The translations under genes and the position numbers were made by a program. The notes beneath the pieces are model-generated. The model did no database searches, was not told where the DNA came from, and saw only the letters and a program-made list of their open reading frames with translations. DNA of 64,000 nt from Enterobacteriaceae bacterium 89 (lineage in GTDB: Bacteria; Pseudomonadota; Gammaproteobacteria; Enterobacterales; Enterobacteriaceae): positions 898,331 to 962,330 of the forward strand of contig RQJH01000002.1 in NCBI GenBank assembly GCA_014156375.1, in the 5' to 3' direction. This document shows positions 18,419-37,455 of this stretch, piece after piece (positions within the stretch are counted from its first letter, which is position 1; each line of letters begins with the position of its first letter).

Positions 18419-19642
18419 ATGTCGGTTTGCAAAATACCACTACCCCAGTCGGTGGTGGAGGCCGCAATAGAACGTATTTCATGGACGTTAGGAAATTATG
18501 AGCGTGTTTGCGTTTCATTTTCAGGTGGCAAAGACTCCACGGTAATGCTGCATCTCACCGGGCAGCTGGCGCGAAAAGCAGGTAAGAAATTTAGCGTCCT
18601 TTTTATTGACTGGGAAGCCCAATTTTCCAGCACCATTGAGCACTGTGAGAAACTTCGCCGGCAATACAGTGATGTCATCGACCAATTTTATTGGGTTGCG
18701 CTACCGCTGCTCACCACCAATTCACTCACTCAATTTAATCCGGAATGGCAATGCTGGGAAAAAGGCGTGGAATGGGTGCGTCAGCCCCCCGAGCATGCGA
18801 TTACCGATCACGCCTTCTTTTCGTTTTATCAGCCCGGAATGACCTTTGAGGCCTTTGTCCGCGACTTTGCTGAATGGTTTTCGCAGCAGCGCCCCGCCGC
18901 CGTGATGATTGGCATTCGCGCCGACGAGTCCTACAACCGTTTCCTGGCCATCGCTTCTCACCGCAAACAGCGCTTCGCCGATGATAAGCCCTGGACCAGC
19001 TTCGCGCCCGGTGGGCACGCCTGGTTTATTTATCCTATTTATGACTGGAAAACAGCGGACATCTGGACGTGGTTTGCGAAAACACAGCTTGCCTACAATC
19101 CCTTGTATAACCTGATGTACCAGGCAGGCGTGCCTTTACGTTACATGCGGATTTGTGAGCCCTTTGGCCCGGAACAGCGTCAGGGTCTGTGGCTGTACCA
19201 CGTGCTGGAGCCCGAGCGTTGGGCGGCAATGTGTCAGCGTGTCGGCGGCGTTCAGTGTGGAGGGATCTATGCCGGCCAGGATAATCAATTCTATGGCCAC
19301 CGCAAGCTTGAAAAGCCCGGGCACCACAGCTGGCAAAGCTACGCGCTGTTTTTGCTGGACAGCATGCCGCAGCCAACGGCAGAGCATTATCGCAACAAAA
19401 TTGCCGTTTATTTGCGCTGGTATCAAAAGCACGGCATGGAAGCCATCCCGGATACGCAGCCTGGCGACACGGGCTCGAAGGATGTCCCTTCCTGGAGGCG
19501 CATCTGTCGGGTGCTGCTCAGCAATGATTACTGGTGTCGGATGCTCTCATTCAGCCCAACCAAGCCAAAGCACTATCAGCGTTACAACCAACGGATGGCG
19601 TCAAAACGTCAGGAATGGGGGATCCTATGCAGCAAAAAATGA
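18419..19642 (+). CDS. ybdN: YbdN (IbrA-like), PAPS-reductase-fold protein
   Basis: This 407-residue protein has a PP-loop ATPase/adenine-nucleotide alpha-hydrolase fold near PAPS reductase and DndC. The nucleotide-binding PP-loop SFSGGKDST is at residues 33-41. Further conserved blocks are FIDWEAQF, MIGIRADESYNR, YPIYDWKTADIWTW and the C-terminal PSWRRICRVLL. It matches E. coli YbdN over its whole length. Homologues called IbrA act with IbrB (YbdM-like) to activate immunoglobulin-binding Eib protein genes in some E. coli. The biochemical activity is unknown. Its last 16 bases overlap ybdM, so the two are translated together. Confidence 0.93.
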   Translation: MSVCKIPLPQSVVEAAIERISWTLGNYERVCVSFSGGKDSTVMLHLTGQLARKAGKKFSVLFIDWEAQFSSTIEHCEKLRRQYSDVIDQFYWVALPLLTTNSLTQFNPEWQCWEKGVEWVRQPPEHAITDHAFFSFYQPGMTFEAFVRDFAEWFSQQRPAAVMIGIRADESYNRFLAIASHRKQRFADDKPWTSFAPGGHAWFIYPIYDWKTADIWTWFAKTQLAYNPLYNLMYQAGVPLRYMRICEPFGPEQRQGLWLYHVLEPERWAAMCQRVGGVQCGGIYAGQDNQFYGHRKLEKPGHHSWQSYALFLLDSMPQPTAEHYRNKIAVYLRWYQKHGMEAIPDTQPGDTGSKDVPSWRRICRVLLSNDYWCRMLSFSPTKPKHYQRYNQRMASKRQEWGILCSKK

Positions 19643-20253: not shown

Positions 20254-21414
20254 TCAGAGTTTGCACAGGCGCTCTGCGGCGGCCAGCAGCGTCGATTCCT
20301 GCTTCGCGAAGCACAGGCGAATCAGCTTGTGCGGGAAAGGATCGGCGCAGAACACCGACAGCGGAATGGCCGCTACGCCCACCTCTTTGGTCAGCCACTG
20401 GCAGAAGCTAACGTCATCGAGATCAGAAATCGCACTGTAATCCGCCAGCAGGAAATAGGTTCCTTCGCAGGGCAGAATTTCCAGCCGACTTTTGCTGAGT
20501 GCCCCGATAAACACATCGCGGCGAGCGCGATAAAAATCCGGCAGCTCACGATAATGTTCCGGCTCCTGTCGGAGCATATCTGCCAGCGCCAGCTGAGCCG
20601 GAGTGTTCACCGCAAAGGTCAGATACTGGTGCACTTTGCGCAATTCTGTACTTATCGCTGCGGGCGCCACGCAATAGCCCACCTTCCAGCCGGTCATGTG
20701 GAAAGTCTTGCCGAAAGAGGAAACGGCAATCGCTCTTTCACGAAGCTCCGGGTGTGCCAACACGCTGGCATGCCCTTCTTCTGCAAAACAGATATGCTCA
20801 TAAACTTCGTCGCTGAGCACATAGATTTCGCGCTCAGCAATGGCCTGCCACAAAGCGGCAAAGTCCGATTTCTGCCAGACGGTCGCCGAAGGGTTATGCG
20901 GCGTATTAAGGATCACCAGGCGTGTGCGGTCGCTTAACAGTTCGCTGAACGCCTGCCAGTCGACGCGAAAATACGGCGGTTGCAGCGCGATGCGTTTCAG
21001 AATACCGCCAGAGAGTTCAACCGCAGGGGCATAGCTGTCATAGCTTGGATCAAAACAAATCACCTCATCGCCTTCACGCACCAGCGCGGTGATTGCGGCA
21101 AACAGCGCTTCTGTCGCACCTGCCGTTACGGTTATTTCCGTATTGGCATCAGGCTGATAGCCATAAAGTTCAGCCGTTTTTCCGGCAATGGCTTCACGCA
21201 GCGCAGGAACCCCTGTCATCGGAGCATACTGGTTTGCTCCCTGAGAAACGTGGTGAGCTAAGCGCTCCTGAAGAAAGCGCGGACCATCAAAATCCGGAAA
21301 TCCTTGCGAAAGGTTTATCGCCTGATGTTCAAGGGCTAACGCGCTCATTTGGGTGAAAATGGTGGTGCCCAGGTTGGGCAGTTTGCTTCGTGGGATCAGC
21401 TTAGAATGGCTCAT
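20254..21414 (-). CDS. ybdL: YbdL, methionine/KMTB aminotransferase
   Basis: This 386-residue pyridoxal-phosphate enzyme of fold type I (class I/II aminotransferases) prefers methionine, histidine and phenylalanine in E. coli. It can make methionine from 4-methylthio-2-oxobutanoate, the last step of methionine salvage. The PLP lysine is in SSFGKTFHMTGWKVGY, the NPHNPS-like Asn in NTPHNPSATVW, the phosphate-binding segment in GATEALFAAI, and the carboxylate-binding Arg in KLIRLCFA. I chose the ATG at 21414 (MSHSKLIPRSKLPN), which gives the E. coli length of 386; the frame is open to 21453. It is divergent from mtnB across a MetJ-like operator, which supports a salvage role. Confidence 0.95.
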   Translation of the reverse strand: MSHSKLIPRSKLPNLGTTIFTQMSALALEHQAINLSQGFPDFDGPRFLQERLAHHVSQGANQYAPMTGVPALREAIAGKTAELYGYQPDANTEITVTAGATEALFAAITALVREGDEVICFDPSYDSYAPAVELSGGILKRIALQPPYFRVDWQAFSELLSDRTRLVILNTPHNPSATVWQKSDFAALWQAIAEREIYVLSDEVYEHICFAEEGHASVLAHPELRERAIAVSSFGKTFHMTGWKVGYCVAPAAISTELRKVHQYLTFAVNTPAQLALADMLRQEPEHYRELPDFYRARRDVFIGALSKSRLEILPCEGTYFLLADYSAISDLDDVSFCQWLTKEVGVAAIPLSVFCADPFPHKLIRLCFAKQESTLLAAAERLCKL

Positions 21415-21482
21415 GGCGTCATAGACCGATTGTAACGATGTTGTTGAAGCCACTATAACACGATGTTAAGATTTGGCAATCA

Positions 21483-21506
21483 AGACGCTTAGACGTCTAA
21501 ACGATA
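21483..21506. promoter_or_regulatory. MetJ-box array between ybdL and mtnB
   Basis: Three adjacent 8-base boxes lie here: AGACGCTT (21483-21490, 6 of 8 to consensus), AGACGTCT (21491-21498, a perfect met box) and AAACGATA (21499-21506, 4 of 8). Tandem 8-bp boxes are the MetJ binding mode. Methionine would repress mtnBCD and possibly ybdL through S-adenosylmethionine-bound MetJ. Confidence 0.82.
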
Positions 21507-21535
21507 CTACCCCGTTTGATCAGGAGAATGGCCGG

Positions 21536-22150
21536 ATGACAGTCAACCCGCAACTCAATGCCCTCGTCGAGGCCTGTCACTGGATCGGGGCCAAAGGCTG
21601 GGCCCCCGCGACCGGCGGGAATATGTCCGTGCGCGAAGATGCTGACTGGTGCTGGCTCAGCGAATCCGGCAAAGATAAAGGCCAGCTAACCTGCGCCGAC
21701 TTTTTACAGGTATCGATAGCCGATAATCAGGCCCCTTCAGGGCGCAATCCCTCGGCCGAAACCGGCTTGCACACCCTCGTTTATCGTCTTTTCCCTGACG
21801 CCAACGCGGTGCTGCATGTTCACACGGTGAATGCCACTGTCCTGTCGCGCATCGAAAAATCCGCAGAGCTGGTATTACAGGGCTACGAAATGCAGAAATC
21901 GCTGCGTGGGCAAAGCAGCCATCTGGACTGCGTGCCTGTTGCCATTTTCGATAACGATCAGGATATTGACGCACTTGCGCGCCGGATTGAACACTATGCC
22001 AGTGAGCGCCCGCTGAACTACGGTTTTCTGCTGCGCGGACATGGCCTCACCTGCTGGGGGCGCGATGTGGCGGAGGCCCGCCGTCATCTGGAAGGGCTGG
22101 AATTTTTATTTGAATGCGAGCTGCGCTTACGCCAACTGGAGAAACTATGA
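21536..22150 (+). CDS. mtnB: MtnB, methylthioribulose-1-phosphate dehydratase
   Basis: This 204-residue zinc enzyme of the class II aldolase/adducin family removes water from methylthioribulose 1-phosphate to give diketomethylthiopentyl phosphate in methionine salvage. Zinc ligands are the two histidines of [10 protein letters not shown] and the His of [11 protein letters not shown]; the catalytic acid is the Glu in SAETGLHT. I chose the ATG at 21536 ([13 protein letters not shown]) with CAGGAG about 10 bases upstream; the frame is open back to 21473 through the MetJ operator. The stop overlaps the mtnC start (ATGA), giving a coupled mtnBCD operon. Confidence 0.95.
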
Positions 22151-22836
22151 TCCGCGCTATTGTGACCGATATTGAAGGCACGACCAGCGATATTCGCTTC
22201 GTACACAACGTGCTGTTTCCCTATGCCCGCGAGCGTCTGGCCGACTTCGTCACGGCTCAGCAGTTTGCTGAACCAGTGAAATCCATTCTTGATGAACTGC
22301 GCACAGAAATTTCCCGCCCGCAGGCTAATCACGAAGAACTTATCGCCACGCTTTTCGCCTTTATGGACGAAGACCGAAAGTCGACAGCGCTGAAAGCCCT
22401 GCAGGGGATGATCTGGCGTGAAGGGTATGTGAACGGCGATTTTACCGGCCATCTCTACCCGGACGTACTGCCTGCCCTGGAAAAATGGAAGCAGCAGGGT
22501 ATTGATTTATACGTTTATTCCTCGGGCTCGGTGGCCGCGCAAAAACTGTTATTTGGCTACAGCGACGAAGGTGATATTACTCCTCTGTTCAGCGGCTACT
22601 TCGATACCCACGTGGGAGCCAAGCGCGAGGTGCAGTCCTACCGTAATATCGCCGATCGGATCGACCACAATCCAGGGCAAATTCTGTTCCTGTCGGACAT
22701 ACATCAGGAACTGGATGCCGCTGAGCAGGCTGGTTTTCGTACCGTACAGTTAATCCGTGGCGACAGCGATGCTGCCAGCCATCATCATCAGGTTTCCAGT
22801 TTCGATAATATTCATCCGGAGCAACTCCCTTCATGA
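22147..22836 (+). CDS. mtnC: MtnC, enolase-phosphatase E1
   Basis: This 229-residue bifunctional HAD-superfamily enzyme enolises and dephosphorylates diketomethylthiopentyl phosphate to the acireductone. HAD motif I is [10 protein letters not shown] at the N terminus, motif [14 protein letters not shown], and motif [15 protein letters not shown] with [13 protein letters not shown]. The start ATG at 22147 ([11 protein letters not shown]) overlaps the mtnB stop by four bases; the earlier frame opening lies inside mtnB. Its own stop overlaps mtnD in the same way. The length is typical. Confidence 0.96.
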
Positions 22837-23375
22837 GCGCACTGACTATTTTCTCTGACAGCAAGGCTAACGAACCCATCTGGTACAGCACCGACGCCAG
22901 TGAAATTCAGCAACGGCTCAATGGCAAAGGCGTGCGCTTTGAGCGCTGGCAGGCGGACCGGGATTTGGGCCGCGATCCTTCCCCGGAAAGCGTTATTGCC
23001 GCCTATCAGCACGCCATCGACAGGCTGGTGCAGGAAAAGGGTTACCAAAGCTGGGATGTGATCAGCCTGCGCGCGGATAATCCGCAAAAAGAGGCCATGC
23101 GTGCAAAATTCCTTAATGAGCACACCCACGGCGAAGATGAAGTCCGTTTCTTTGTTGAAGGGGCCGGGCTGTTTTGCCTGCATATTGGTGATGAGGTCTT
23201 TCAGGTTCTGTGTGAGAAAAACGATCTGATTTCCGTTCCGGCAGGTACGCCCCACTGGTTTGATATGGGCTCCGAACCCAACTTTACCGCGATCCGCATT
23301 TTTGATAATCCCGAAGGCTGGATTGCCCAGTTCACCGGCAGTGCAATTGCTGCAGGTTTTCCTAAGCTCGCCTGA
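22833..23375 (+). CDS. mtnD: MtnD, acireductone dioxygenase
   Basis: This 180-residue cupin enzyme is the ARD/ARD' of Klebsiella. With iron it yields 4-methylthio-2-oxobutanoate and formate; with nickel it makes methylthiopropionate, formate and CO off-pathway. The metal ligands are the two His and the Glu of [15 protein letters not shown] and the His of PAGTPHWFD. It overlaps mtnC by ATGA and ends the operon at the hairpin at 23388-23422. Its product is the substrate of YbdL, encoded divergently upstream. Confidence 0.97.
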
Positions 23376-24883: not shown

Positions 24884-25375
24884 TTACTGGTCATGATTCA
24901 CGCATAAGGCAAAAGGCGACTGAGGATTCCCCATTAGCCAGGCATTACCATAAGGGCTAAGCCGCATTTGCCGGTGTGTTCCTTGCTGAGTAAAAAAGAA
25001 ACTCTTTTTGAAGAAATCGTCACTCGTCGTGTCCCTTCTGTTCTTGACGTAATTCAGGTTTCGAATTGAAATTTCGCCCGGAGAGGTTATCTCATAGTCA
25101 AACTCAACTCGTCTGGAAACAACACTGGCTTCATTTTCAGAATGAACATTCCCTGACAGAACAACAAATCCGCTACGATCTTCTTTAAGGCGAAGATTCA
25201 TTTCGACGGTAGAAACAAAATCAGGATCCCGATGGTCGTAGTGCAGAATAGTTGAACAATTTACATCATGCCCGGGCGTACGAAAGCGGTGGTACACAAA
25301 AATAGCCAGTGAGAGGATCAGCATGGCCATCAGGGTAACAGAGATCGTAATTTTGACTTTACTCATTGCTTGCAT
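24884..25375 (-). CDS. FidL/YqeJ-like inner-membrane protein
   Basis: This 163-residue protein starts with a short basic segment and one transmembrane helix (about residues 8-27, VTLMAMLILSLAIFVYH), followed by a periplasmic domain of about 135 residues rich in beta strands (STVEMNLRLKEDRSGFVVLSGNV...VEFDYEIT). This layout and its position directly after a ToxR-like regulator are those of FidL in Salmonella SPI-3 and YqeJ in E. coli. I chose the ATG at 25375 (MQAMSKVKIT), which has GGAG 5 bases upstream and overlaps the regulator end by 17 bases; the longer frame inside the regulator is unlikely. By analogy with ToxS it may modulate the regulator, which is inference. Confidence 0.78.
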   Translation of the reverse strand: MQAMSKVKITISVTLMAMLILSLAIFVYHRFRTPGHDVNCSTILHYDHRDPDFVSTVEMNLRLKEDRSGFVVLSGNVHSENEASVVSRRVEFDYEITSPGEISIRNLNYVKNRRDTTSDDFFKKSFFFTQQGTHRQMRLSPYGNAWLMGNPQSPFALCVNHDQ

Positions 25376-26198
25376 ATCCGCTCCAGTAGAAATTCTGGCA
25401 AGAGATATAATGACTTTCTTTCGAGGTACACCGGCTAATAAACGCTCGTCCTTTTTTACCATAAAGGTAGGACTCAGAAACCTGAAAAAGAAAGGTTGAG
25501 CCATTCAGACATAATATCCCCTCTTTAGTCACGAGTTCGGTAAACATTTTTTTCTTTGTTTCGCTCAGTGCAATAGAGTTTTGCTGAATGGTATTAACCG
25601 GACAGGTTTCATAATCAAACAAATGATAGGTCGACATATCTTTTGGTTTATTGGCTATCCTGGCGGGATACCAGTATTGTGCAGATATCAACAGAGAACA
25701 TATCAACAGCGTTAAGAATGAAAGTACAAAGTATTTAACACCAGCTGTAGCAGCCAGAGTTTTCGCCGCAATATGCTCTTTTCCTTCGCGATGCACATTA
25801 TGTTCTTTGAAATCATCATCAGTAGCATGCTTGGGTTTAGCTGTTTTCTCAGAGGCGGTGCTCTCAATTATTTCAACAGCAATATCACCGTTAAAGATAA
25901 AGCCAACCCGAGGTACCGTTATAATGCACTCCTGGGTGATGCCAAACTGGACAAAATGCTTTCTGAGTTCAGAAATATATTTATTGAGAGTGTGATTCGA
26001 GGAGCGCAGACCATGAGCGTCCCAGACCCCCTCCAACAGTTCATTACGAGTCAACACCTGACCTCGTTTCTCCAGCACAAAGGCAAGCAACCTGTTCATG
26101 GTCATCGTCAGAGTGACGGCTGAATGTTCATCTTCTGAAAGCCACAGCGAGCCGTCCTCAGGACGATACCGAACCCTTGTGTCTATGAGGTAAACCAT
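25359..26198 (-). CDS. MarT/CadC/ToxR-like membrane-anchored transcriptional regulator
   Basis: This 279-residue regulator has an N-terminal OmpR-type winged helix (about residues 10-105: LTMTMNRLLAFVLEKRGQVLTRNELLEGVW..., ending IITVPRVGFIFNG). A polar linker, one transmembrane segment (about 150-170, YFVLSFLTLLICSLLISA) and a periplasmic domain of about 105 residues follow. The periplasmic part has four cysteines (ETCPV, GILCLN, SRCTS, ISCQN) that could form redox- or acid-sensitive disulfides. I chose the ATG at 26198 (MVYLIDTRV), preceded by GGGAGGGGC; the frame is open to 26243. Divergent from the autotransporter and overlapping the FidL-like gene, it matches the marT-fidL-misL arrangement, so it probably activates the adhesin gene. 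Confidence 0.85.
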   Translation of the reverse strand: MVYLIDTRVRYRPEDGSLWLSEDEHSAVTLTMTMNRLLAFVLEKRGQVLTRNELLEGVWDAHGLRSSNHTLNKYISELRKHFVQFGITQECIITVPRVGFIFNGDIAVEIIESTASEKTAKPKHATDDDFKEHNVHREGKEHIAAKTLAATAGVKYFVLSFLTLLICSLLISAQYWYPARIANKPKDMSTYHLFDYETCPVNTIQQNSIALSETKKKMFTELVTKEGILCLNGSTFLFQVSESYLYGKKGRAFISRCTSKESHYISCQNFYWSGYASNE

Positions 26199-26465
26199 CT
26201 TTGCCCCTCCCTGCCTCATGGTGATGACGGCATGATAGCACATACCCGTAAGTCAAACCTTTTTGCAGCACAACAGTTTGCAAAAGAAAAATTTAGAAGA
26301 TTTTAAATTTGTAAATAGCTGACATTGCAATACAAATTGCCAAAAACATAGCCTGTTTGTCAGGATAATTCGCAGAAATATATTTGAGCAAGAGCGTACT
26401 TCTCCCGACGAACACTCAGGACCTCAGGACTTTTGCACTTGAAAAAAATCTCAGGGAATAGCCAT
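26199..26465. other. AT-rich divergent promoter region of the regulator and autotransporter
   Basis: This 267-base gap is visibly more AT-rich than its surroundings, especially 26260-26350. It must hold the promoters of both genes and any binding sites for the ToxR-like regulator. AT-rich promoters of horizontally gained adhesins are typical H-NS targets. I could not define a specific operator. Confidence 0.5.
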
Positions 26466-29045
26466 ATGAAAAAATTCAAACTTAATGCACTCACCCTTGC
26501 ACTAGCGAGCATGTCTTTTATCTCCTCAAATATCGTACATGCTATGACCATAAACGAAGGTGAAATTGTCCATGACCTTGTTCTTAAGAATCAAAGCGTA
26601 GATATCGAAGGCAGCGTCTATGGACTCACTAATTCACCCAACGCTCATGCAATAATAGTGGTGAGAGGTAATGGTTATGTTGAAGATGCAGATTTGAAAG
26701 GATCAGGCGTCGAGTTAACTGTGACTGGACAAAATGCCGTTCTGAATAAAGGTGTTGTCGAGAACAGTGCCCAACTACGAGTTGGATACTGGGGAGGGAA
26801 TCAGCAGGAGGGGGGATTACTCGTCAGTGCCACGGCCAATGATGGCGGTCGGATACATGTTGCCAGTACAGGCACAGCCGAAAACTCAACAGCTAATTAT
26901 AACGGAACAATCATCACCTATGTCGGCGGCACGGATATTAACTCAGTTATAAACAACGGCGGTTCCCTGATTACTGAGGGGGGCAAGTCGTACAATACAG
27001 AGGTTAATAGCGGTGGATTCCATATTATTAACAAGAGTACAAACCCTGCTATTGGTATTACCGCCGGAGGAGAAAGTCATTCCGCAACAATTAATAGTAA
27101 TGGTCGCCAGTATGTTTACGGGGGAGCAACATCCTTTGGAACCATGGTTAACTCAGGCTTTCAATATGTAAAGAATGGCGGTCTCTCGTCTGGGACAACG
27201 CTCAATGGTGGCATTCAGTATATTGAAGCGGGAGGAAAAGCCGAAAGCTCCACCATTAATTGGGGCGATCAGTGGGTTTCCGGAGGGGTTGTTGTCGGCA
27301 CCACTTTAGACGGCGGTCGCCAATATCTTCAGGAAGCTTCTTCAGCCTTTAACACACATATTGAGGGCAATGGATATCAATTCGTTGATCACAATTCCAC
27401 AACAACCCACACCAGCATTCATTCCGGTCTGACAGACTTAGCCCCTGGAGCGCTTGCTGACGGAGTCACCAGCGTAGGCGCTGACGGTACCCTGTCTCTT
27501 CAGTCCGACGCACGTGCGACCGATATCAGAGTGAAGGGAGGCACAATTCTTATTTATGATCATCATCACTCGCTGACAGAGGACCGCGCACCAGCTCAGA
27601 TTGATAAACTAACCATGGATAATGGGAGCGTCTCATTTAGCAAGCTAGGCCACGGAGAACTCGCCAGGCTCAACGTTTCCGAGCTGTCAGGCACAGGAAA
27701 TTTCATCTTCAACACCTCACTGTCCGAGCGAGAAGCCAACTTCGTGACGATTGAACAAGGCACCGGACGATTCGGGGTTGCCATCTCCGACTCCGGTAAA
27801 GAAATCACCGATCATACCGATCTCACTCTCAACCTAATTCACGAGAAAGGCGGCGACATTGATTTTGAGATGGTGACAGCGAATGGGCGGAGCACAAAAG
27901 GCATTGATGGTGGTACCTACATGTACACACTGTATAGCGCTCAGGACAAGGATGGCCTGAACGGCGGAAACGTCTGGTACCTGGGGGCTATGGAAGAGAA
28001 TCCTGGTGGTGGTGAGAATCCTGGTGGTGGTGAGAATCCTGGTGGTGGTGAAAATCCTGGCGGTGGTGAAAATCCTGACGGTGGTGAGAATCCTGGCGGT
28101 GGCGAGAACCCTGGCGGCGGAAAAGTCCCTATGACAACGCCTGCAACCGATGCCGTGCTGGCCATGTCATCAGCAGGCCTGAAAGTCATCGGTGCCGAGC
28201 TTGACGGCTGGCGCATGTACCGCGCAGGTCTCGATAAAACCGGTCCGCAAAGCAATGTCTGGGGCCACTACCTCGGAAGCAAAAACAATATTGATACCAA
28301 CAGCGGCACGGCGTATCAGTTAAACCAGAACGGGATGGAAATCGGGGGTGATACGCGAACGGAATTCACTCGCGGCAGCCTGGTCACCGGAGCTTATGCT
28401 TCTTACAGCGACAACAAGGTTAACCATGCCAGAGGCGGTAAAAGCAAGATTGAAAGCTATGGTATCGGCGCCTATGCCGCCTGGTTTGATGCCCGTGGTT
28501 TCTATGCCGATGGGGTTGTTAAAGGAAACCGGCTTAACAACACGTTGAGCGCGACCATGACAAATGGAGGCAGAACCAGCGGTGACTGGAATCAGTACGC
28601 GCTCAGCACTTCTCTGGAAGGGGGATATCAGCTTGATGTCACAAGTGAAACAAGCCTGACACCCTACACCCGTCTCTCATTTGTTCAGACGACCCGCGAG
28701 GATGTGAAGCTCAGCAACGGAATGAAAGGAAATACCGGTACACCCCGTTCGACGGTCGGCGAGGCAGGTGCCAAAGTTGCTCTTAAACTGGCTATCGGGA
28801 AGGCTGAATTCAGGCCTTATCTGTCAGCCGCCATACTGCAGGAATTTGCAAATTCTAATACAGTCACCATCAACCAACGGCACCGTTTCGACAACAATAC
28901 GAAAGGAACATCCGGTAAATACGGCGTTGGCGCATCGGTCAAGCTTGGAAAAGACCTTACGCTATACGGTGAGGCAAATTATCGTCAGGGCAGTTATATC
29001 GAGACACCCATTCAGGGAATGCTGGGAATAAAAGCCTCTTTCTGA
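26466..29045 (+). CDS. Autotransporter adhesin with AIDA-type repeats (MisL-like)
   Basis: This 859-residue type Va secreted protein starts with a signal peptide of about 26 residues ending SSNIVHA. The passenger (about 27-500) is a beta-helix with AIDA/pertactin-type repeats of about 19-20 residues between about 150 and 340 (GGRQYVYGGATS.., NGGIQYIEAGGKA.., DGGRQYLQEASSA..). A linker of seven ENPGGG units covers residues 511-552, and a C-terminal beta-barrel translocator (about 575-859) ends in the aromatic IKASF. I chose the ATG at 26466 (MKKFKLNAL) with AGGGA upstream, not the earlier frame opening at 26433. It is divergent from the MarT-like regulator and probably mediates adhesion to host or surface ligands. 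Codon use is less GC-biased than in the backbone, which supports transfer. Confidence 0.9.
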   Translation: MKKFKLNALTLALASMSFISSNIVHAMTINEGEIVHDLVLKNQSVDIEGSVYGLTNSPNAHAIIVVRGNGYVEDADLKGSGVELTVTGQNAVLNKGVVENSAQLRVGYWGGNQQEGGLLVSATANDGGRIHVASTGTAENSTANYNGTIITYVGGTDINSVINNGGSLITEGGKSYNTEVNSGGFHIINKSTNPAIGITAGGESHSATINSNGRQYVYGGATSFGTMVNSGFQYVKNGGLSSGTTLNGGIQYIEAGGKAESSTINWGDQWVSGGVVVGTTLDGGRQYLQEASSAFNTHIEGNGYQFVDHNSTTTHTSIHSGLTDLAPGALADGVTSVGADGTLSLQSDARATDIRVKGGTILIYDHHHSLTEDRAPAQIDKLTMDNGSVSFSKLGHGELARLNVSELSGTGNFIFNTSLSEREANFVTIEQGTGRFGVAISDSGKEITDHTDLTLNLIHEKGGDIDFEMVTANGRSTKGIDGGTYMYTLYSAQDKDGLNGGNVWYLGAMEENPGGGENPGGGENPGGGENPGGGENPDGGENPGGGENPGGGKVPMTTPATDAVLAMSSAGLKVIGAELDGWRMYRAGLDKTGPQSNVWGHYLGSKNNIDTNSGTAYQLNQNGMEIGGDTRTEFTRGSLVTGAYASYSDNKVNHARGGKSKIESYGIGAYAAWFDARGFYADGVVKGNRLNNTLSATMTNGGRTSGDWNQYALSTSLEGGYQLDVTSETSLTPYTRLSFVQTTREDVKLSNGMKGNTGTPRSTVGEAGAKVALKLAIGKAEFRPYLSAAILQEFANSNTVTINQRHRFDNNTKGTSGKYGVGASVKLGKDLTLYGEANYRQGSYIETPIQGMLGIKASF
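27996..28121 (+). repeat. 18-bp in-frame tandem repeat encoding ENPGGG x7
   Basis: Seven consecutive 18-base units of the form GARAAYCCTGGYGGYGGY encode Glu-Asn-Pro-Gly-Gly-Gly (the fifth has Asp for the first Gly). The first three units are identical in DNA, which suggests recent duplication. The repeat forms the flexible linker between passenger and barrel, and copy-number change would keep the frame. Confidence 0.95.
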
Positions 29046-29510: not shown

Positions 29511-30542
29511 TTAGCCATTAAGTCCGAATTCGAACACTCCTGCACGTACTTCGTTCGGCGAGACTACGCCACTGTCCAGCACCCAGCCGCTGATGAGTTC
29601 GGCTGGCGTCACGTCAAATGCCGGGTTATACACTTTGGCGTTCTGTGGAGCCCACTGCACGGCACCAAAGCTTCCAGCCACGCCAGTCACCTCTGATGCT
29701 GCACGTTGTTCAATCGGAATAGCATCCCCGTTCGGGCAGTGAGGATCGAGCGTGGTTTGTGGGGCGGCGACATAGAAAGGAATATTGTGGAACCGGGCTA
29801 ATACGGCCAGAGAGTAAGTGCCGATTTTGTTCGCCACATCGCCATTGGCAGCAATACGGTCAGCGCCAACCCACACGGCGTCCACCAGCCCTTTCGCCAT
29901 CAGGCTTGCCGCCATGGAATCGGTAATGAGCTGATAAGGCACGCCCAGTTCACCCAGCTCCCAGGCCGTCAGCCTGCCGCCCTGCAACAGCGGGCGGGTC
30001 TCATCCACCCAGACGTTTTCAACTTTCCCCTGCTGATGAGCCAGATTTATCACCCCTAATGCCGTGCCAACGCCAGCGGTCGCCAGGCCGCCGGTATTGC
30101 AGTGAGTCAACAAACGGCTACCCGGTTTCACCAGTTCACTACCTGCAACGGCGATCTGCTCACAAAGCCGCTTATCTTCTTCCACCAGCCGCAGCGCTTC
30201 ACTCACCAACGCAGGGACAAAATTATCTTCTGCCAGCCGGAGCTTCATGCGATCCAGATTATTCATCAGATTGACCGCCGTCGGACGCGAAGCTCGCAGA
30301 GTTTCCAGGGCAGCCAGCAGCTCATCGCGGTTGAGACCACGTTCCGCCAGCAGCGCCAGCAAAAGGCTGGCAGAAAGGCCAATTAACGGAGCGCCGCGCA
30401 CCCGCAGGGCGTGAATATGGCCAACCAACAGTTCAACGCTGTTGGCCTCCAGCCAGCGCGTTTCCTGCGGCAGAGCCTGCTGATCGAGGATAAACAACTG
30501 ATTATCGCGCACCCGCAGGCTGGTGGTCTGTAATGTCTGCAT
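29511..30542 (-). CDS. mtnA: MtnA, methylthioribose-1-phosphate isomerase
   Basis: This 343-residue enzyme converts methylthioribose 1-phosphate to methylthioribulose 1-phosphate. It belongs to the eIF2B-alpha-like isomerases. Conserved blocks include [38 protein letters not shown] with the catalytic Cys, [24 protein letters not shown] with the catalytic Asp, and [10 protein letters not shown]. Length is normal. It is divergent from mtnK across a 118-base region that carries a MetJ-box array. In the same pathway, mtnBCD lie 6-7 kb away beyond the accessory block. The gap beyond its stop holds the ldr/rdl locus. Confidence 0.97.
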
Positions 30543-30594: not shown

Positions 30595-30618
30595 AGATGT
30601 ATAGACGTCCAAACGGCT
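30595..30618. promoter_or_regulatory. MetJ-box array between mtnA and mtnK
   Basis: Three contiguous 8-base boxes lie here: AGATGTAT (30595-30602, 6 of 8), AGACGTCC (30603-30610, 7 of 8) and AAACGGCT (30611-30618, 6 of 8 to AGACGTCT). They lie midway between the divergent starts, so MetJ could repress both genes. Confidence 0.82.
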
Positions 30619-30660: not shown

Positions 30661-31860
30661 ATGTCGCACTACCACACCTTCACCGCTCACGACGCCGTGG
30701 CCTATGCGCAACAATTTGGCGGTCTGGATAGTCCCTCTGAGCTGGTCTCAGCCGAGGAAGTTGGCGACGGGAATCTCAATCTGGTTTTTAAAATCTTCGA
30801 TGCCAACGGCGTCAGCCGGGTGATTGTTAAACAAGCCTTACCCTATGTGCGCTGCGTTGGAGAGTCCTGGCCGTTAACGCTGGATCGCGCCCGCCTTGAA
30901 GCCCAGACGCTGGTAGAGCACCATCGCCACAGCCCTCAACATACCGTGAAAATTCATCATTTTGACCCGGCGCTGGCGGTGATGGTGATGGAAGATTTAT
31001 CTGACCATCGTATCTGGCGCGGTGAGCTGATCCAGGGCGTTTATTACCCACAGGCCGCGCAGCAGCTCGGTCACTATCTTGCGCAGACGCTGTTTCACAC
31101 TAGCGATTTCTTCCTGCATCCGCATGAGAAAAAAGCGCAGGTAGCTCAGTTTATTAACCCGGAAATGTGTGAGATCACCGAAGACCTGTTCTTTAACGAT
31201 CCGTACCAGATTCACGAACGGAACAACTATCCTGCTGAGCTGGAAACAGACGTAGCAGCGCTCCGCGAGGATACGCAGCTGAAACTTGCCGTCGCTTCGC
31301 TGAAGCATCGTTTCTTCTCACAGGCCGAAGCCCTGCTGCACGGGGATATTCACAGCGGATCTATTTTTGTCGCAGACGACAGCCTGAAAGCTATCGATGC
31401 CGAGTTTGGCTACTTCGGCCCGATCGGTTTTGATGTCGGGACGGCGATTGGCAACCTGTTGCTGAACTACTGCGGGCTGCCGGGTCATCTGGGCATTCGT
31501 GATGCCGCAGCCGCCCGTGAGCAGCGCCTGGTCGATATTCAGGAGCTGTGGAACACTTTCGCCGAACGTTTTCAGACACTGGCCAGCGAAAACACGCGTG
31601 ATGCCGCCCTCGCTTATCCGGGCTACGCGTCTGAGTTCCTGAAAAAAGTCTGGCAGGATGCGGTAGGATTTTGCGGCACTGAGCTGATTCGCCGCAGCGT
31701 TGGGCTTTCTCACGTGGCAGATATCGAGACGATCAAAGATGACGCGATGCGCCACGAGTGCCTGCGCCATGCGATTACCCTTGGGCGTGCGCTGATCGTT
31801 CTTGCGGATAAAATCAACGGCGTGGATGAACTGATTGCCCGTATTCGTCAGTACAGCTAA
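30661..31860 (+). CDS. mtnK: MtnK, S-methyl-5-thioribose kinase
   Basis: This 399-residue ATP-dependent kinase phosphorylates methylthioribose at C1, the entry step of the salvage branch that starts from free methylthioribose. It has the aminoglycoside-phosphotransferase/choline-kinase fold. The conserved segments are [14 protein letters not shown] for the nucleotide loop, the catalytic [10 protein letters not shown], and the metal-binding [14 protein letters not shown]. Length equals the Klebsiella enzyme. MtnK is typical of Klebsiella-type salvage and absent from E. coli K-12. A free-methylthioribose kinase implies an importer, and the ABC system next door is the obvious candidate. Confidence 0.97.
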
Positions 31861-31870
31861 GACCTGAGAT

Positions 31871-31892
31871 GCCCTCTCCATCACGAGAGGGC
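31871..31892. terminator. Hairpin between convergent mtnK and the ABC operon
   Basis: GCCCTCTC (31871-31878) and GAGAGGGC (31885-31892) form a perfect 8-bp stem with a 6-base loop. T-runs are lacking on both sides, so it is a moderate terminator at best. Confidence 0.55.
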
Positions 31893-31900
31893 GAACTTAA

Positions 31901-32968
31901 TTACTGCTTATTCTTCGCTTCAAGCGTGGCAAACCACGGGGCGATGAAATCTTCCGTCTGACCCCAACCCGGAACAATTTTACCCAGAGTGGCGACGTTT
32001 ACCGCTCCCGGCTGTGCAACCAGCAGCGCCTGAGGAATAGCGGCTGCTTTAAAGCTGTAGCTTGCAGGCGTAGTCTCACCAGCAATTTTGTTGGCAATCA
32101 GCCTTACGTTGGTGGCACCAATCAGCTTCGAATCCACGGCGACGCTAACCTTCCACGGGCTACCGGCTTCACGCATTAACTGCAAATCCTGATTGGAAAC
32201 GTCAATGCTGTAGAGTTTGATTTCAGTACGGCCATTCTCTTTCAGCGCTTTATAAGCGCCCTGGCTGAACGCATCCCAGGTACCCCAGATGGCATCAATT
32301 TTCCCTTTCGGGTATTTCGCCAGAATCGCGCCGACTTTGTTGGCCGTATCGCCCTGCACGTCAGAGGAAACCGCGCCGATTGACTCCAGCTCCTTGATGC
32401 CAGGGTTTTGCTGCAGCAGCGCTTTATAAGCAGTTTCACGACGTTCCATCGGTGGGAAGCCGGCAACCCATAATTTAATAATATTGGCTTTGCCGTTGAA
32501 ATCTTTTACCAACTGGCCGAAAGAGAGCTCGGTCAGAGAGGCGTCATCCTGCTGAGACACCGTCACGCCGGGAATATCTCCCTGCACCGCAGTATCAAAA
32601 GCTGCCACTTTAATTCCGGCATCCACCGCCTTCTTCACCAGCGCAGTAGAATAGGGATCGCGCCCCTGCGACAGAATTATCCCGTCATATTTCTGGCTGA
32701 TAGCCTGATTAACGAAGTCCTGGAATTTCGCATCATCGCCGTTGCTCAGAAAGGCGCTGACCTTGAAGCCCAGTTTTTTCCCTTCCTGAATCGCTCCGGC
32801 GACAAACTGAGTGGTGTTATCGTCAGAGCCCAGATTACGGATCACCGCAATACGAATCGGGCCGCTGTGGCTGGCAATAGCCGCTGGAACTGGGGCTGGC
32901 GTTTCAGCGAGCGAAGAAAATGACGTCAGCAGCCCCAGTGCAATAAGCGATAGCGTGGTGTTTTTCAT
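31901..32968 (-). CDS. Periplasmic sugar-binding protein of a ribose-type ABC importer
   Basis: This 355-residue exported protein has a signal peptide of about 21 residues (MKNTTLSLIALGLLTSFSSLA) and two Rossmann-like lobes of the RbsB/peripla_BP_4 family. Typical segments are QFVAGAIQEGKKLGFKVSAF, YDGIILSQGRDPYSTALVKKAVDAGIKVAAFDT and IDAIWGTWDAFSQGAYKALKENGR. It is the last gene of a minus-strand operon with permease and ATPase. It converges on mtnK, and the operon starts with MetJ-like boxes. I infer methylthioribose, a ribose analogue, as the ligand; direct evidence is lacking. Ribose, autoinducer-2 or another pentose are alternatives. Confidence 0.88.
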   Translation of the reverse strand: MKNTTLSLIALGLLTSFSSLAETPAPVPAAIASHSGPIRIAVIRNLGSDDNTTQFVAGAIQEGKKLGFKVSAFLSNGDDAKFQDFVNQAISQKYDGIILSQGRDPYSTALVKKAVDAGIKVAAFDTAVQGDIPGVTVSQQDDASLTELSFGQLVKDFNGKANIIKLWVAGFPPMERRETAYKALLQQNPGIKELESIGAVSSDVQGDTANKVGAILAKYPKGKIDAIWGTWDAFSQGAYKALKENGRTEIKLYSIDVSNQDLQLMREAGSPWKVSVAVDSKLIGATNVRLIANKIAGETTPASYSFKAAAIPQALLVAQPGAVNVATLGKIVPGWGQTEDFIAPWFATLEAKNKQ

Positions 32969-32988
32969 TGTGTTTACCCTGATTATAG

Positions 32989-33987
32989 TTATGTCCGGCG
33001 CGGGAAATAGGTCAGAGCCAGCGCGCCAGCCAGCACCAGACCTTTGATAATATCCATGGCGTAATAAGGCACCGACAGCATCACCAGACCATTGGAAAGC
33101 ACGCCGAGGATCACCGCACCAACCAGCGTCCCCAGTGCGTTTGGCTTGCCTGACCCTGCCAGCGAGAAACCAATCCAGGCCGCCGCCACCGCATCCATCA
33201 GGTAACCGCTACCGGCATTAACCTGCGATGAGCCAATTCGTGAGGCCAGCAGAATGCCGCCCAGTCCCGCCAGCAGTGAAGCAATCACATACGCCGCTAC
33301 TTTGTAGCGCGTGGTACGAATACCAGAAAGACGTGCCGCTTCAGGGTTGCCCCCAATGGCATACATGCGGCGGCCGTGAGTGGTGAGCGACAGCGCCAGT
33401 TGGGCAACCAGCGTCACCACCAGCATGATGATGACGATGGTCGGGACCTGCCCGAGTGAACCAAACGCCGCCGGGATCGTCCCTTCCGCCATATCGCCGC
33501 TCGGCAGCACCATGTTTTCAGTGATGGAGCCGCCAAAGCTGTAGGTGGCGGCCACGCCCTGCACTACGAACAGGCTGGCAAGCGTCGCCAGCATGTCAGG
33601 AATGCGCAGGACCACGATCAGAAAGGCGTTGAACAGCCCCACCAGCGTGCAAAGCGCAAGGGTGATAACAATCGCTTCCGTCGTGCCAAAGCCATGCCAG
33701 ACGAACAGCGACATCACCAGGGTATTCGCCAGCGAGGCCGTCGACCCAACGGAGAGATCAAAGCCGCCAACGGTCAGCGAAATCGACACACCGACCGCAA
33801 TCACCGTCACAATCGCGATAGAACGCAGGATATTGATGATGTTAAACGGATCGAGGAAGTTATCCGCAGCAAGACCGAAAATGGCGACCAGGGCCACCAC
33901 CGTCAGCAACATGCCCCATTTATAGAGAAAATCAAAAATATGCTGACGGCCCGACGCCGCCGCTTTTACTGCCTGGGCATTGCTCAC
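32989..33987 (-). CDS. ABC importer permease (RbsC/AraH family)
   Basis: This 332-residue inner-membrane protein of the BPD_transp_2 family has about nine to ten hydrophobic segments. The conserved GGIDLSVG motif appears as VGGFDLSVGSTASLANT, and GGNPEAARLSGIRTTRYK is the cytoplasmic coupling segment typical of RbsC. The start is a GTG at 33987 that overlaps the stop of the ATPase gene by four bases, with GGAGG upstream. It probably works as a homodimer with the fused two-domain ATPase. It is part of the candidate methylthioribose importer. Confidence 0.9.
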   Translation of the reverse strand: MSNAQAVKAAASGRQHIFDFLYKWGMLLTVVALVAIFGLAADNFLDPFNIINILRSIAIVTVIAVGVSISLTVGGFDLSVGSTASLANTLVMSLFVWHGFGTTEAIVITLALCTLVGLFNAFLIVVLRIPDMLATLASLFVVQGVAATYSFGGSITENMVLPSGDMAEGTIPAAFGSLGQVPTIVIIMLVVTLVAQLALSLTTHGRRMYAIGGNPEAARLSGIRTTRYKVAAYVIASLLAGLGGILLASRIGSSQVNAGSGYLMDAVAAAWIGFSLAGSGKPNALGTLVGAVILGVLSNGLVMLSVPYYAMDIIKGLVLAGALALTYFPRRT

Positions 33988-35486
33988 AGCGCCGCTCCTC
34001 CGGTGGAGTAATAAAGTAATGTCTCTTCACGGGCTTCATCGCCCGAAATTTCTGCCACGATGCGCCCGTCCCACAGCACGCAAATTCTGTCGCACAGCCC
34101 AACCAACTCGGCAAACTCGCCGGAGGCATAAATCACGCCCTTTCCTTCCCGGGCAAGGCCATCAATCAGCGTGAACAGATCCGTTTTGGCTTTGACGTCC
34201 ACGCCTTTGGTTGGCTCATCAAAAATCAGCACGCTGGCATGACCGCGCAGCCATTTTCCAATCGCCACCTTCTGCTGATTACCGCCGGAAAGGCGGCGCA
34301 GCGTTTGAGCAGGACCGGTAGCACGAACCCCAAGACGGGCAATCGCCTGTTCCGCCCAGCGCCATGCCTGACGATGACCAAACAGGCTCCAGCGCGAAAA
34401 ACTGTTGTCGGCGCTCACCGCCAGATTCATCCCGATGGATTTCTCAACGAAAATCCCTTCCTTGCGTCGTTCTTCCGGAACCAGCGCCAGCCCGCGGGTG
34501 ACGGAATCGGCGGGATCTTTCGGCTGCCAGCGCTGACCGTTTAGTTCTCCTTTCTCGATTATGCTTTTGCTCGCCCCAAACAGCGCTTTGCACAGCTCGG
34601 TTTTTCCCGCACCGGCCAGACCGGCGATGCCCAGAATTTCTCCCTTGCGCAGACTGAGCGAAATGTTTTGCAGCAGGCGCTCGTCATGCAGCCCTTCAAC
34701 CTGCAACACCACTTCTTCACTGTGAGCGCTGCGTTTTGGTGGGAAGAGATCCGTTAGCTCGTGGCCCAGCATTTTGGCGACAATCTGTTCACCGCTCAGC
34801 GCCGCCATCGGGCCGCTCTCAATCAGCCGCCCGTCGCGCAGCACCGTAAGGGTGTCGCAAATCGCCTTTAGCTCGTGGATGCGGTGTGAGATAAACACCA
34901 CGCCTATCCCCTGTTGTTGCAGGTGCCTGACGACGCCAAACAGCCGCTCGCTTTCATGGCTGTCCAGTGGCGCAGTGGGTTCATCGAGGATCAGAAAGCG
35001 ACAGTGATGGGAAAGTGCCCGCGCCAGCAAAATTTGCTGCTTTTCCGCCAGTGTACATCCGTCAATTGCACGCCTGACGTCGAGTTCAACGCCCAGCTGT
35101 GCCAGAGCCTCTGTTGCCTTTTGTCGTATCTGCCGCCAGCTGAAGCGGTAGCCCGGAACGGCCAGGTGATCGAGCATGATGTTTTCAGCAATCGACAACC
35201 CAGGCACCAAAGCAACATCCACCTCCTGCTGAACCAAATGGATACCAAGCTGTTTTGCATCCCGTGGGGTGCGGATGCTCACCGGCTGCTGGTTGATCGC
35301 TATCTCACCGTCATAGTGACCGTAGGTGCCACACAGCACGGCCATCAAAGTTGATTTCCCGGCCCCGTTGGCCCCCGTCAGCGCATGTACGGAGCCTCCT
35401 GTGAGGGTAAACGTCACCTGAGTCAGCGCGTTAAAACCTGAAAAAGCCAGGCTGATGCCACGCATCTCAAGGCAGTTATATGCCAT
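33984..35486 (-). CDS. ABC importer ATPase with two nucleotide-binding domains (RbsA/MglA family)
   Basis: This 500-residue cytoplasmic ATPase has two fused ABC domains. The first (about 1-240) has Walker A GANGAGKST, a degenerate signature LAEKQQILLARAL and Walker B FLILDEPT. The second (about 250-500) has the atypical Walker A GLAGAGKTEL, the canonical signature LSGGNQQKVAIGKWL and LIFDEPTKGVD. One degenerate and one good site is normal for sugar importers of this kind. It is first in its operon; AAGGAG precedes the ATG at 35486, and MetJ-like boxes lie about 90-115 bases upstream. Confidence 0.93.
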   Translation of the reverse strand: MAYNCLEMRGISLAFSGFNALTQVTFTLTGGSVHALTGANGAGKSTLMAVLCGTYGHYDGEIAINQQPVSIRTPRDAKQLGIHLVQQEVDVALVPGLSIAENIMLDHLAVPGYRFSWRQIRQKATEALAQLGVELDVRRAIDGCTLAEKQQILLARALSHHCRFLILDEPTAPLDSHESERLFGVVRHLQQQGIGVVFISHRIHELKAICDTLTVLRDGRLIESGPMAALSGEQIVAKMLGHELTDLFPPKRSAHSEEVVLQVEGLHDERLLQNISLSLRKGEILGIAGLAGAGKTELCKALFGASKSIIEKGELNGQRWQPKDPADSVTRGLALVPEERRKEGIFVEKSIGMNLAVSADNSFSRWSLFGHRQAWRWAEQAIARLGVRATGPAQTLRRLSGGNQQKVAIGKWLRGHASVLIFDEPTKGVDVKAKTDLFTLIDGLAREGKGVIYASGEFAELVGLCDRICVLWDGRIVAEISGDEAREETLLYYSTGGAAL

Positions 35487-35797
35487 TCGCTGACTCCTTT
35501 GTTAATGGATGGATCAAGCATGCGTTCACTGCAGATAACCCTGACGTAAAGGCATAAGATAAAGCCAAATGATATTAGCCGTCCGGATGTCCAGACATAT
35601 TCATGGATAGCGATAATACACAGAAAAATAACAAATGAGCAACAGCGTTGTTCAGCTCCAATCCATTTGTAAAAACGGCCAACCTAACTCGCTGATACAC
35701 AAAGCGCCGCAGATTCTCCAGCCGCCCCTCCATTGACGGCAGCGGAGCGCCTTCTATACCTAATGATGATTCTCAATCCACTTCCAGTGAGGCAACT
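35487..35797. other. Divergent region between ABC importer and SDR gene
   Basis: This 311-base gap holds no gene. Its left half carries the candidate MetJ boxes for the importer. Its right end carries a possible Fur-like site, TAATGATGATTCTCA (35761-35775), about 23 bases before the SDR ATG. Confidence 0.5.
35577..35600. promoter_or_regulatory. Candidate MetJ-box array upstream of the ABC importer
   Basis: Three adjacent 8-base boxes lie here: AGCCGTCC (35577-35584, 6 of 8), GGATGTCC (35585-35592, 5 of 8) and AGACATAT (35593-35600, 6 of 8 to AGACGTCT). They are weaker than the arrays at mtnB and mtnA/mtnK but have the same register and number. They would place the importer in the methionine regulon. 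Confidence 0.6.
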
Positions 35798-36755: not shown

Positions 36756-37073
36756 ATGGAAAAAAAGTTGACGATCGTTTGGACAAATGCGGCAAGAAAA
36801 GATCTGGCAGCAATAGATAAACGCTACCAGCAACACATCAGGAGAAGGATCGAGTTTCTGGGTGACATCAGCGCCCCACCTCTTGACCTTATGAAGCTCG
36901 CCCGTCCGGCCAATCACTACCGGCTTAGAGTCGGAGACTATCGGGTCATTTTCACCCGCGGTGATGAGGACAATGACACTTGCTTTATCGTGGCCGTCCG
37001 ACGCAGAACGACAACAACCTATTCCCTTCATGAGGAGCCAGGAGTCTATGAATATACAATTTATAAAAGATGA
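36756..37073 (+). CDS. RelE/ParE-family toxin
   Basis: This 105-residue small basic protein has the RelE fold pattern: IVWTNAARKDLAAIDKRYQQHIRRRIEFL, then KLARPANHYRLRVGDYRVIFTR and a C-terminal strand FIVAVRRRT. RelE-type toxins cleave ribosome-bound mRNA, whereas ParE types poison gyrase; I cannot separate the two here. The toxin gene precedes the antitoxin gene, as in higBA-type modules, and overlaps it by 26 bases. It lies where E. coli has ybdH, next to ybdD. Confidence 0.85.
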   Translation: MEKKLTIVWTNAARKDLAAIDKRYQQHIRRRIEFLGDISAPPLDLMKLARPANHYRLRVGDYRVIFTRGDEDNDTCFIVAVRRRTTTTYSLHEEPGVYEYTIYKR

Positions 37074-37455
37074 ACAGGGCAACACCCAATACGTCGTCGT
37101 GCCCTACCATATCTGGTTCAATATGCAATTGGACCGTCTGGAAGTAGAAGACGAAAGTGAGGAAGAAAACTGGGAAGAGATCCCCATCGAGCACGATAAA
37201 TACGATGATGTCGTCATCCCGCACGAAATCATTGCCATTACGATCGACGAGGATGTCAGCCTGCAGGCGGCCTGGCGTATCGCTCGCGGCCTCTCTCAAC
37301 AGGAAGTCGCGGAAAAGCTAGGGATCACCCAGTCAGCCGTTTCTCAGTTGGAGTCTCCTTTCTCGCGCCCGCAGAAACGTACTCGTGAAAAACTGGCGGC
37401 TATTTACAGCTGCAAGCAGGAGCAAATCAGCCTGTATCTGCCTAAAGAAGGCTAG
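37048..37455 (+). CDS. XRE-family antitoxin
   Basis: This 135-residue acidic protein has an N-terminal segment likely to bind the toxin ([30 protein letters not shown]) and a C-terminal helix-turn-helix of about 55 residues ([23 protein letters not shown]). I chose the ATG at 37048 ([10 protein letters not shown]) with AGGAG 4 bases upstream; the longer frame lies inside the toxin gene. It should neutralise the toxin and repress the operon. Its TAG stop shares the CTAG tetramer with the stop of convergent ybdD. Confidence 0.87.

Follow-up and report, generated by a model that had tools for sequence, protein, structure and literature searches.

The 64-kb stretch of the genome of Enterobacteriaceae bacterium 89 analysed here (positions 898,331 to 962,330 of contig RQJH01000002.1; hereafter the window) carries, beside the methylthioribose kinase gene mtnK, three genes that very probably constitute the mtrACB ATP-binding cassette (ABC) importer, bringing in methylthioribose, a sugar that contains sulphur, for salvage under moderate repression by MetJ. 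We infer both the substrate of mtrACB and the direction of transport. In the proposed mechanism, MtrB would capture periplasmic 5-methylthioribose, its ATP-driven passage over the inner membrane would be the task of MtrC and MtrA, MtnK would phosphorylate the incoming methylthioribose, and MtnA, MtnB, MtnC, MtnD and MtnE would convert the product to methionine. At high methionine, MetJ together with S-adenosylmethionine would occupy positions 35577-35600 and exert a moderate repression of the importer.

The original prediction, made from the DNA letters, had described a ribose-type importer (two-domain ATPase, permease and binding protein) convergent on mtnK, and the open reading frames at 31901-35486, together with their Pfam domains, confirm this description:

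31901-32968, minus strand: mtrB orthologue, periplasmic binding protein of 355 amino acids (Pfam Peripla_BP_4, 109 bits)
32989-33987, minus strand: mtrC orthologue, permease of 332 amino acids with a GTG start (Pfam BPD_transp_2, 116.6 bits)
33984-35486, minus strand: mtrA orthologue, two-domain ATPase of 500 amino acids (Pfam ABC_tran, in two stretches)
30661-31860, plus strand: mtnK, methylthioribose kinase (TIGR01767, 506.6 bits, cut-off 275)
31870-31893, no strand assigned: stem-loop between the convergent mtnK and mtrB stop codons (9-bp stem; 56 nt folded give -19.1 kcal/mol, z -4.3)

Because the three importer genes overlap or almost abut, mtrA-mtrC-mtrB are probably transcribed as a single operon from the ATPase end. 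The layout is that of CUT2-type sugar ABC importers, in which a type I sugar binding protein works with a BPD_transp_2 permease and an ATPase of two fused domains. The NCBIfam models that matched the importer subunits (ribose, autoinducer-2 (AI-2), rhamnose, xylose, arabinose and others) all scored under their cut-offs, the best 25 of 192 matches being considered for the ATPase. The convergent mtrB and mtnK genes are separated by a gap of 40 bases (31861-31900) that contains the stem-loop, possibly a terminator shared by both.

Relationship to mtrACB and co-occurrence with mtnK

The mtrACB genes were named in 2011 by Augustus and Spicer as a probable methylthioribose transporter that, according to their paper, was first identified in Bacillus cereus, had not been characterised functionally and has metboxes in gammaproteobacteria (PMC3228920). 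The B. cereus identification is credited to Rodionov 2004 (via PMC3228920 and PMC6302742). Leyn et al. (2014) listed the methylthioribose uptake genes mtnXYZ, which we infer to be the same genes as mtrACB, among the genome-specific members of the MetJ regulon (PMC4239095). Both the importer proposal and MetJ control have been in print for related bacteria since 2011. The original prediction knew of no proven substrate for the system, and in these papers, where the proposal is already in print, the substrate is a prediction too (PMC3228920, PMC4239095). The present analysis adds the co-occurrence counts across the family, the closeness to the structure 4RY8, the separate ribose and AI-2 receptors of the genome, and the sister importers linked to the dihydroxyacetone phosphate (DHAP) shunt.

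Judged by sequence, the importer of the window is an orthologue of mtrACB and an ordinary member of this known system. A scan of genome contigs yielded 269 relatives of the binding protein, of which the best 80 loci were kept for comparison, the named records among them being nearly all from Enterobacterales. The mtrB gene shows 80-95% identity to these best 80 of 269 relatives, while mtrC is 86-95% identical to 70 near-full-length orthologues and mtrA 73-88% identical to 69. Klebsiella pneumoniae ATCC 13883 (locus L015) has the same gene order, also convergent on mtnK (mtrB 90%, mtrC 92%, mtrA 86%), and convergent mtrB and mtnK genes were seen in 63 of the 80 loci, i.e., in every locus whose retrieved stretch includes mtnK. 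In agreement with the published loss, an Escherichia coli collection searched in distant mode (E 1e-50) with the 3586 bases of the importer gave no match.

The window has in common with mtrACB of Enterobacteria the order ATPase-permease-binding protein, the position beside mtnK and mtnA and the boxes upstream of mtrA. It differs in mtrY, a gene for an LVIVD-repeat protein; this gene comes immediately after mtrB in 72 of the 80 loci and not in the window. No match to mtrY was found in the mtrB-mtnK gap of the window or elsewhere in the genome, the genome search having been run without a positive control, and mtrY was also without match in eight of the 80 loci (L002, L011, L016, L022 and L078-L081). 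Given that mtrY is without match here and in these eight loci, the importer may not always depend on it; the position of mtrY close behind mtrB has been described as usual, not universal (PMC3228920), and does not define mtrACB. One of the eight, L011 (CACSKA010000002.1), is titled Chryseobacterium sp. and has a typical enterobacterial mtrACB-mtnKA locus (mtrB 90%), so this record probably stems from a mislabelled or contaminated assembly.

To relate the importer to the kinase we used 295 genomes from the family of the window, calling MtrB at E <= 1e-30. MtrB was present in 89 genomes, mtnK in 112 and both in 89 (Fisher 3e-54). An importer occurring mostly in genomes without mtnK was the pattern that the original prediction had named as telling against it when it proposed a co-occurrence survey, and MtrB without mtnK was found in 0/89. 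The two genes lie within 5 kb of each other in 39 of these genomes, within 20 kb in 4, on one contig but at least 309 kb apart in 12, and on different contigs in 34; five of the latter (G097, G516, G586, G587 and G610) match near a contig start, where assembly breaks are possible. As MtrB and mtnK are far apart or on different contigs in many genomes, linkage alone is an insufficient explanation of the association. The control receptor RbsB was present in 181 of the 295 genomes, 101 of them with mtnK, and within these 181 the ratio of genomes with and without mtnK was 86:0 when MtrB was present and 15:80 when it was not. MtrB is spread over 45 of 154 genera and, thus, the count does not come from one clone. 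In the order sample, which overlaps the family sample, MtrB at 75% identity or more was found in 17 of 345 genomes, with mtnK over cut-off in 17/17. Stop-interrupted or split MtrB (G365, G443, G520) and broken or partial mtnK (G365, G383, G386, G434) were counted as present.

The MtrB receptor and its predicted ligand

The AlphaFold (AF2) model of MtrB has a predicted local distance difference test score of 89.6. When it was used for a structural search, the best matches were 5ulb (Z 46.4) and 4ry8 (Z 40.1), followed by chains of at most 31.4, with LsrB at 27.8, and the 50 best matches (Z 27.6-46.4) were mostly sugar binding proteins. A profile of MtrB and its relatives ranked the structures in the same way (5ulb 621 bits, 4ry8 281, next chain 103.5, best LsrB 43). 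PDB 5ULB ('sugar ABC transporter', Yersinia enterocolitica 8081) shares 82% identity with MtrB and is an orthologous receptor of solved structure; its title names no ligand. PDB 4RY8 (Tlet_1677), from Thermotoga lettingae and thus from another phylum, is titled 5-methylthioribose transporter solute binding protein; it aligns with MtrB over 320 residues and presumably has methylthioribose bound in the crystal. The co-occurrence of MtrB with mtnK (89/89) and the position of 4RY8 as the nearest structure after the orthologue 5ULB lend support to the predicted role as a methylthioribose importer.

The pockets were compared at the ribose-contact positions of RbsB. At five of them MtrB and 4RY8 have the same residues (D, Q, R, W, D). 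D89, R141 and D215 of RbsB are kept as D125, R177 and D256 in MtrB, and they are kept in 4ry8 too, whereas R90, N190 and Q235 are replaced by T126, W231 and V278 in MtrB and by L, W and T in 4ry8. With these replacements polar contacts are lost and an aromatic side chain is gained.

These data bear on the possibility that the genes encode a ribose importer that adjoins mtnK by accident. The layout and fold class are those of RbsABC, and each of the three subunits has ribose models in its list of matches. However, MtrB scores 22.3 bits with the RbsB model NF007936, far under the cut-off of 337, several ribose contacts are replaced as described above, an RbsB that passes the cut-off is encoded on another contig of the genome, and mtnK co-occurrence is complete in the family sample even for distant genes. 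We rejected ribose as the principal reading on account of the low model scores and the true RbsB, and consider it very improbable. An AI-2 importer appears more improbable still. AI-2 is likewise a small, sugar-like compound from S-adenosylmethionine metabolism and MtrB gives a weak match to the LsrB model NF011937 (24.6 bits), but the cut-off of that model is 384, the LsrB structures fall far below 4ry8 by both profile and structure, and a true LsrB (662 bits) is encoded separately in the genome; this candidate was rejected on the same grounds. In these sequence and structure comparisons we found nothing pointing to MtrB binding ribose or AI-2 instead of methylthioribose, the other outcome that the original prediction had named as telling against it.

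In a phylogenetic tree, MtrB, 4ry8 and four distant relatives stand opposite five other binding proteins of the genome on a branch with 100/100 support, the program flagging long branches. Three of the distant importers, from genomes of the same order (receptor 29-33% and permease 42-43% identity), form rows with genes for a class II aldolase and for mtnK-like and mtnA-like proteins (L082, 2694-9427; L083, 4310-10924; L086, 4039-10856). Each row seems to be a DHAP-shunt operon that includes an ABC importer of its own. In one genome, the fourth importer (L084) and the genes mtnK and mtnA (L085) are separated by about 20 kb. The DHAP-shunt set, MtnK and MtnA included, reportedly handles both methylthioribose and 5-deoxyribose (PMC12632272), and sugar transporter genes had already been seen in such clusters by Beaudoin et al. 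(2018) (PMC6079011).

The sister importers suggest another substrate for the window genes, i.e., 5-deoxyribose, alone or together with methylthioribose. In its favour, the importers beside the DHAP-shunt set would serve a pathway reported for both sugars, and MtrB and the sister receptors have D125, Q140, R177 and D256 in common at RbsB contact positions. On the other hand, MtrB and the sister receptors form groups separated with 97/99 and 100/100 support, and the pocket differs at W231, which is Y or F in the sisters. The context in the window is a full methionine salvage set with MetJ-like operators, i.e., sulphur, and a sulphur-free sugar would be unexpected under MetJ, which counts against 5-deoxyribose. 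We regard this alternative as unlikely, although it deserves more weight than ribose or AI-2; 5-deoxyribose stays a live candidate as co-substrate, and its uptake alongside methylthioribose is compatible with a methylthioribose importer. Tentatively, and with slightly less than even confidence, we propose that MtrB, 4RY8 and the mtnK-linked relatives could form one clade of dedicated importers of 5-substituted ribose that serves two sugar fates. In many Enterobacteriaceae the sugar would enter oxygen-dependent methionine salvage controlled by MetJ, and in other lineages a DHAP shunt of kinase, isomerase and aldolase encoded in operons; a small number of pocket residues (49-52, 231 and 278) would decide whether a methylthio or a methyl group is preferred.

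MetJ-like operators and points against the proposal

As yardstick for an operator we used the 8-bp AGACGTCT repeated three times and scored out of 24. Three sites of the window stand out:

35577-35600, no strand assigned: tandem array of three MetJ-like boxes in front of mtrA (17/24 versus three times AGACGTCT)
30595-30618, no strand assigned: MetJ-like boxes between the divergent mtnA and mtnK (19/24 on the same scale), the top site of the window
21483-21506, no strand assigned: MetJ-like boxes between the divergent mtnE and mtnB (18/24 on the same scale)

The site upstream of mtrA reads AGCCGTCC GGATGTCC AGACATAT, with 2, 3 and 2 mismatches per box, and since each single box is imperfect the wording 'MetJ-like' is apt. 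The original prediction had placed three tandem MetJ-like boxes in this promoter region, and they proved to be above chance. Four positions, belonging to three sites, reach 17/24 or more in the window, while 100 simulated 64-kb sequences (first-order Markov) contained a mean of 0.05 such positions and a maximum of 1. In 20,000 simulations, likewise first-order Markov, a 311-bp stretch had a best score of at least 17 with a probability of 0.00015-0.00035. A chance origin of the boxes was rejected on the basis of these simulations. The metJ gene is present in the genome, its own locus having a three-box score of 19, so that, as in a MetJ regulon, tandem boxes near AGACGTCT precede mtrA in a genome with metJ. 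The region upstream of mtrA in K. pneumoniae scores 16/24, compared with 17/24 in the window, and in a lacZ reporter assay the Klebsiella mtrA operator gave a MetJ repression ratio of 0.42 (PMC3228920). When 19 non-redundant upstream regions were aligned, the exact 24 box bases ranked 8th of 197 windows, with an identity of 0.85 against a median of 0.66. Each of the seven better windows, which reach 0.88, overlaps the box block, so that the block lies inside the best-conserved stretch upstream of mtrA.

Several observations weigh against our interpretation, those on regulation being also relevant to the possibility that 35577-35600 is not a working MetJ operator and that its conservation reflects another promoter element. 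The boxes are degenerate, and fewer than half of the enterobacterial mtrA genes (19 of 41) have been credited with metboxes (PMC3228920). The best score in the 320 bases upstream of mtrA in 69 other loci is 15 in 46, 16 in 10, 17 in 7 and 18 in 6, and a single score of 15 is not unusual, with a P of about 0.013-0.015 for 311 bp. The block is poorly kept in the alignment in L022, L052 and L062, L052 having a 16/24 site further upstream; the alignment leaves out L033, L038 and L069, with partial mtrA matches, whose scores are 13, 15 and 16. The conservation continues downstream of the boxes into the probable promoter and is therefore not proof of MetJ alone. The promoter could not be placed, since a consensus scan of the intergenic stretch upstream of mtrA gave no sigma-70 match. 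In Klebsiella, the repression of mtrA was weaker than that of the remaining salvage genes in the assay, which included mtrB and had ratios of 0.12 or less (PMC3228920). The genome-specific regulon membership of the mtnXYZ type is a class of low conservation (PMC4239095), and the mtrB gene of Pectobacterium versatile is listed as PhoP-activated (PMC7843439), so MetJ is not the sole reported control. Set against the simulations, the conservation of the block and the repression of the Klebsiella counterpart, a non-operator role of the boxes appears improbable.

The remaining points concern the substrate and the link to mtnK. The first pocket loop of 4RY8, a protein of about 32% identity to MtrB, has G, F and F where MtrB has D49, N51 and T52. 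In the family sample, 23 genomes have mtnK without MtrB, and the genomes are related and not independent observations. YfnA of Bacillus subtilis, a transporter of the amino-acid-permease type that is not known to be related to ABC importers, has its proposed substrate in common with mtrACB. It is under this name, and also as MtrA, that a different methylthioribose importer is reportedly used by B. subtilis (PMC5743806). Most Yersinia pestis strains have lost the enzymes and kept mtrCBY with a broken mtrA (PMC3228920), and therefore the mtrACB-mtnK link has exceptions outside our sample. Finally, we found no functional test (binding or transport) of mtrACB in a limited, mostly open-access literature.

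Salvage genes and significance

The window also encodes the following salvage enzymes:

29511-30542, minus strand: mtnA, methylthioribose-1-phosphate isomerase (TIGR00512, 402.4 bits, cut-off 279)
20254-21453, minus strand: mtnE, methionine aminotransferase (NF006569, 695 bits, cut-off 420)
21473-22150, plus strand: mtnB (NF006672, 327 bits, the match starting at residue 21)
22114-22836, plus strand: mtnC, acireductone synthase (TIGR01691, 336.6 bits, cut-off 128.1)
22833-23375, plus strand: mtnD, acireductone dioxygenase (Pfam ARD, 117.9 bits)

The mtnA gene is divergent from mtnK, on its far side relative to the importer, and mtnE with the divergent mtnB, mtnC and mtnD are located about 8 kb further left of mtnA. 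With mtnA, B, C, D, E and K all inside the window, a complete route from methylthioribose to methionine is therefore present within it. No NCBIfam model matched mtnD at 1e-10. The listed TTG start of mtnB precedes the MetJ-like boxes, and the real start is probably near 21533.

Other genes of the window include a PAPS (3'-phosphoadenosine 5'-phosphosulphate)-reductase/DUF3440 protein near mtnE (18419-19642), in a setting that resembles the ybd neighbourhood of E. coli. An autotransporter of 870 amino acids (25359-29045) has a run of GGENP repeats ahead of its beta-domain and adjoins a winged-helix regulator gene (25359-26243). At 36756-37455, a ParE-type toxin gene overlaps the listed frame of a helix-turn-helix gene, forming a probable toxin-antitoxin pair.

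The close association with mtnK throughout the family, together with the kinship to 4RY8, makes the methylthioribose prediction readily decidable, and the structure of the orthologue (5ULB) is already solved. If a dedicated methylthioribose importer does exist in these bacteria, it would imply cross-feeding of reduced sulphur between bacteria, because E. coli, which is without the pathway, reportedly excretes methylthioribose (PMC3228920).

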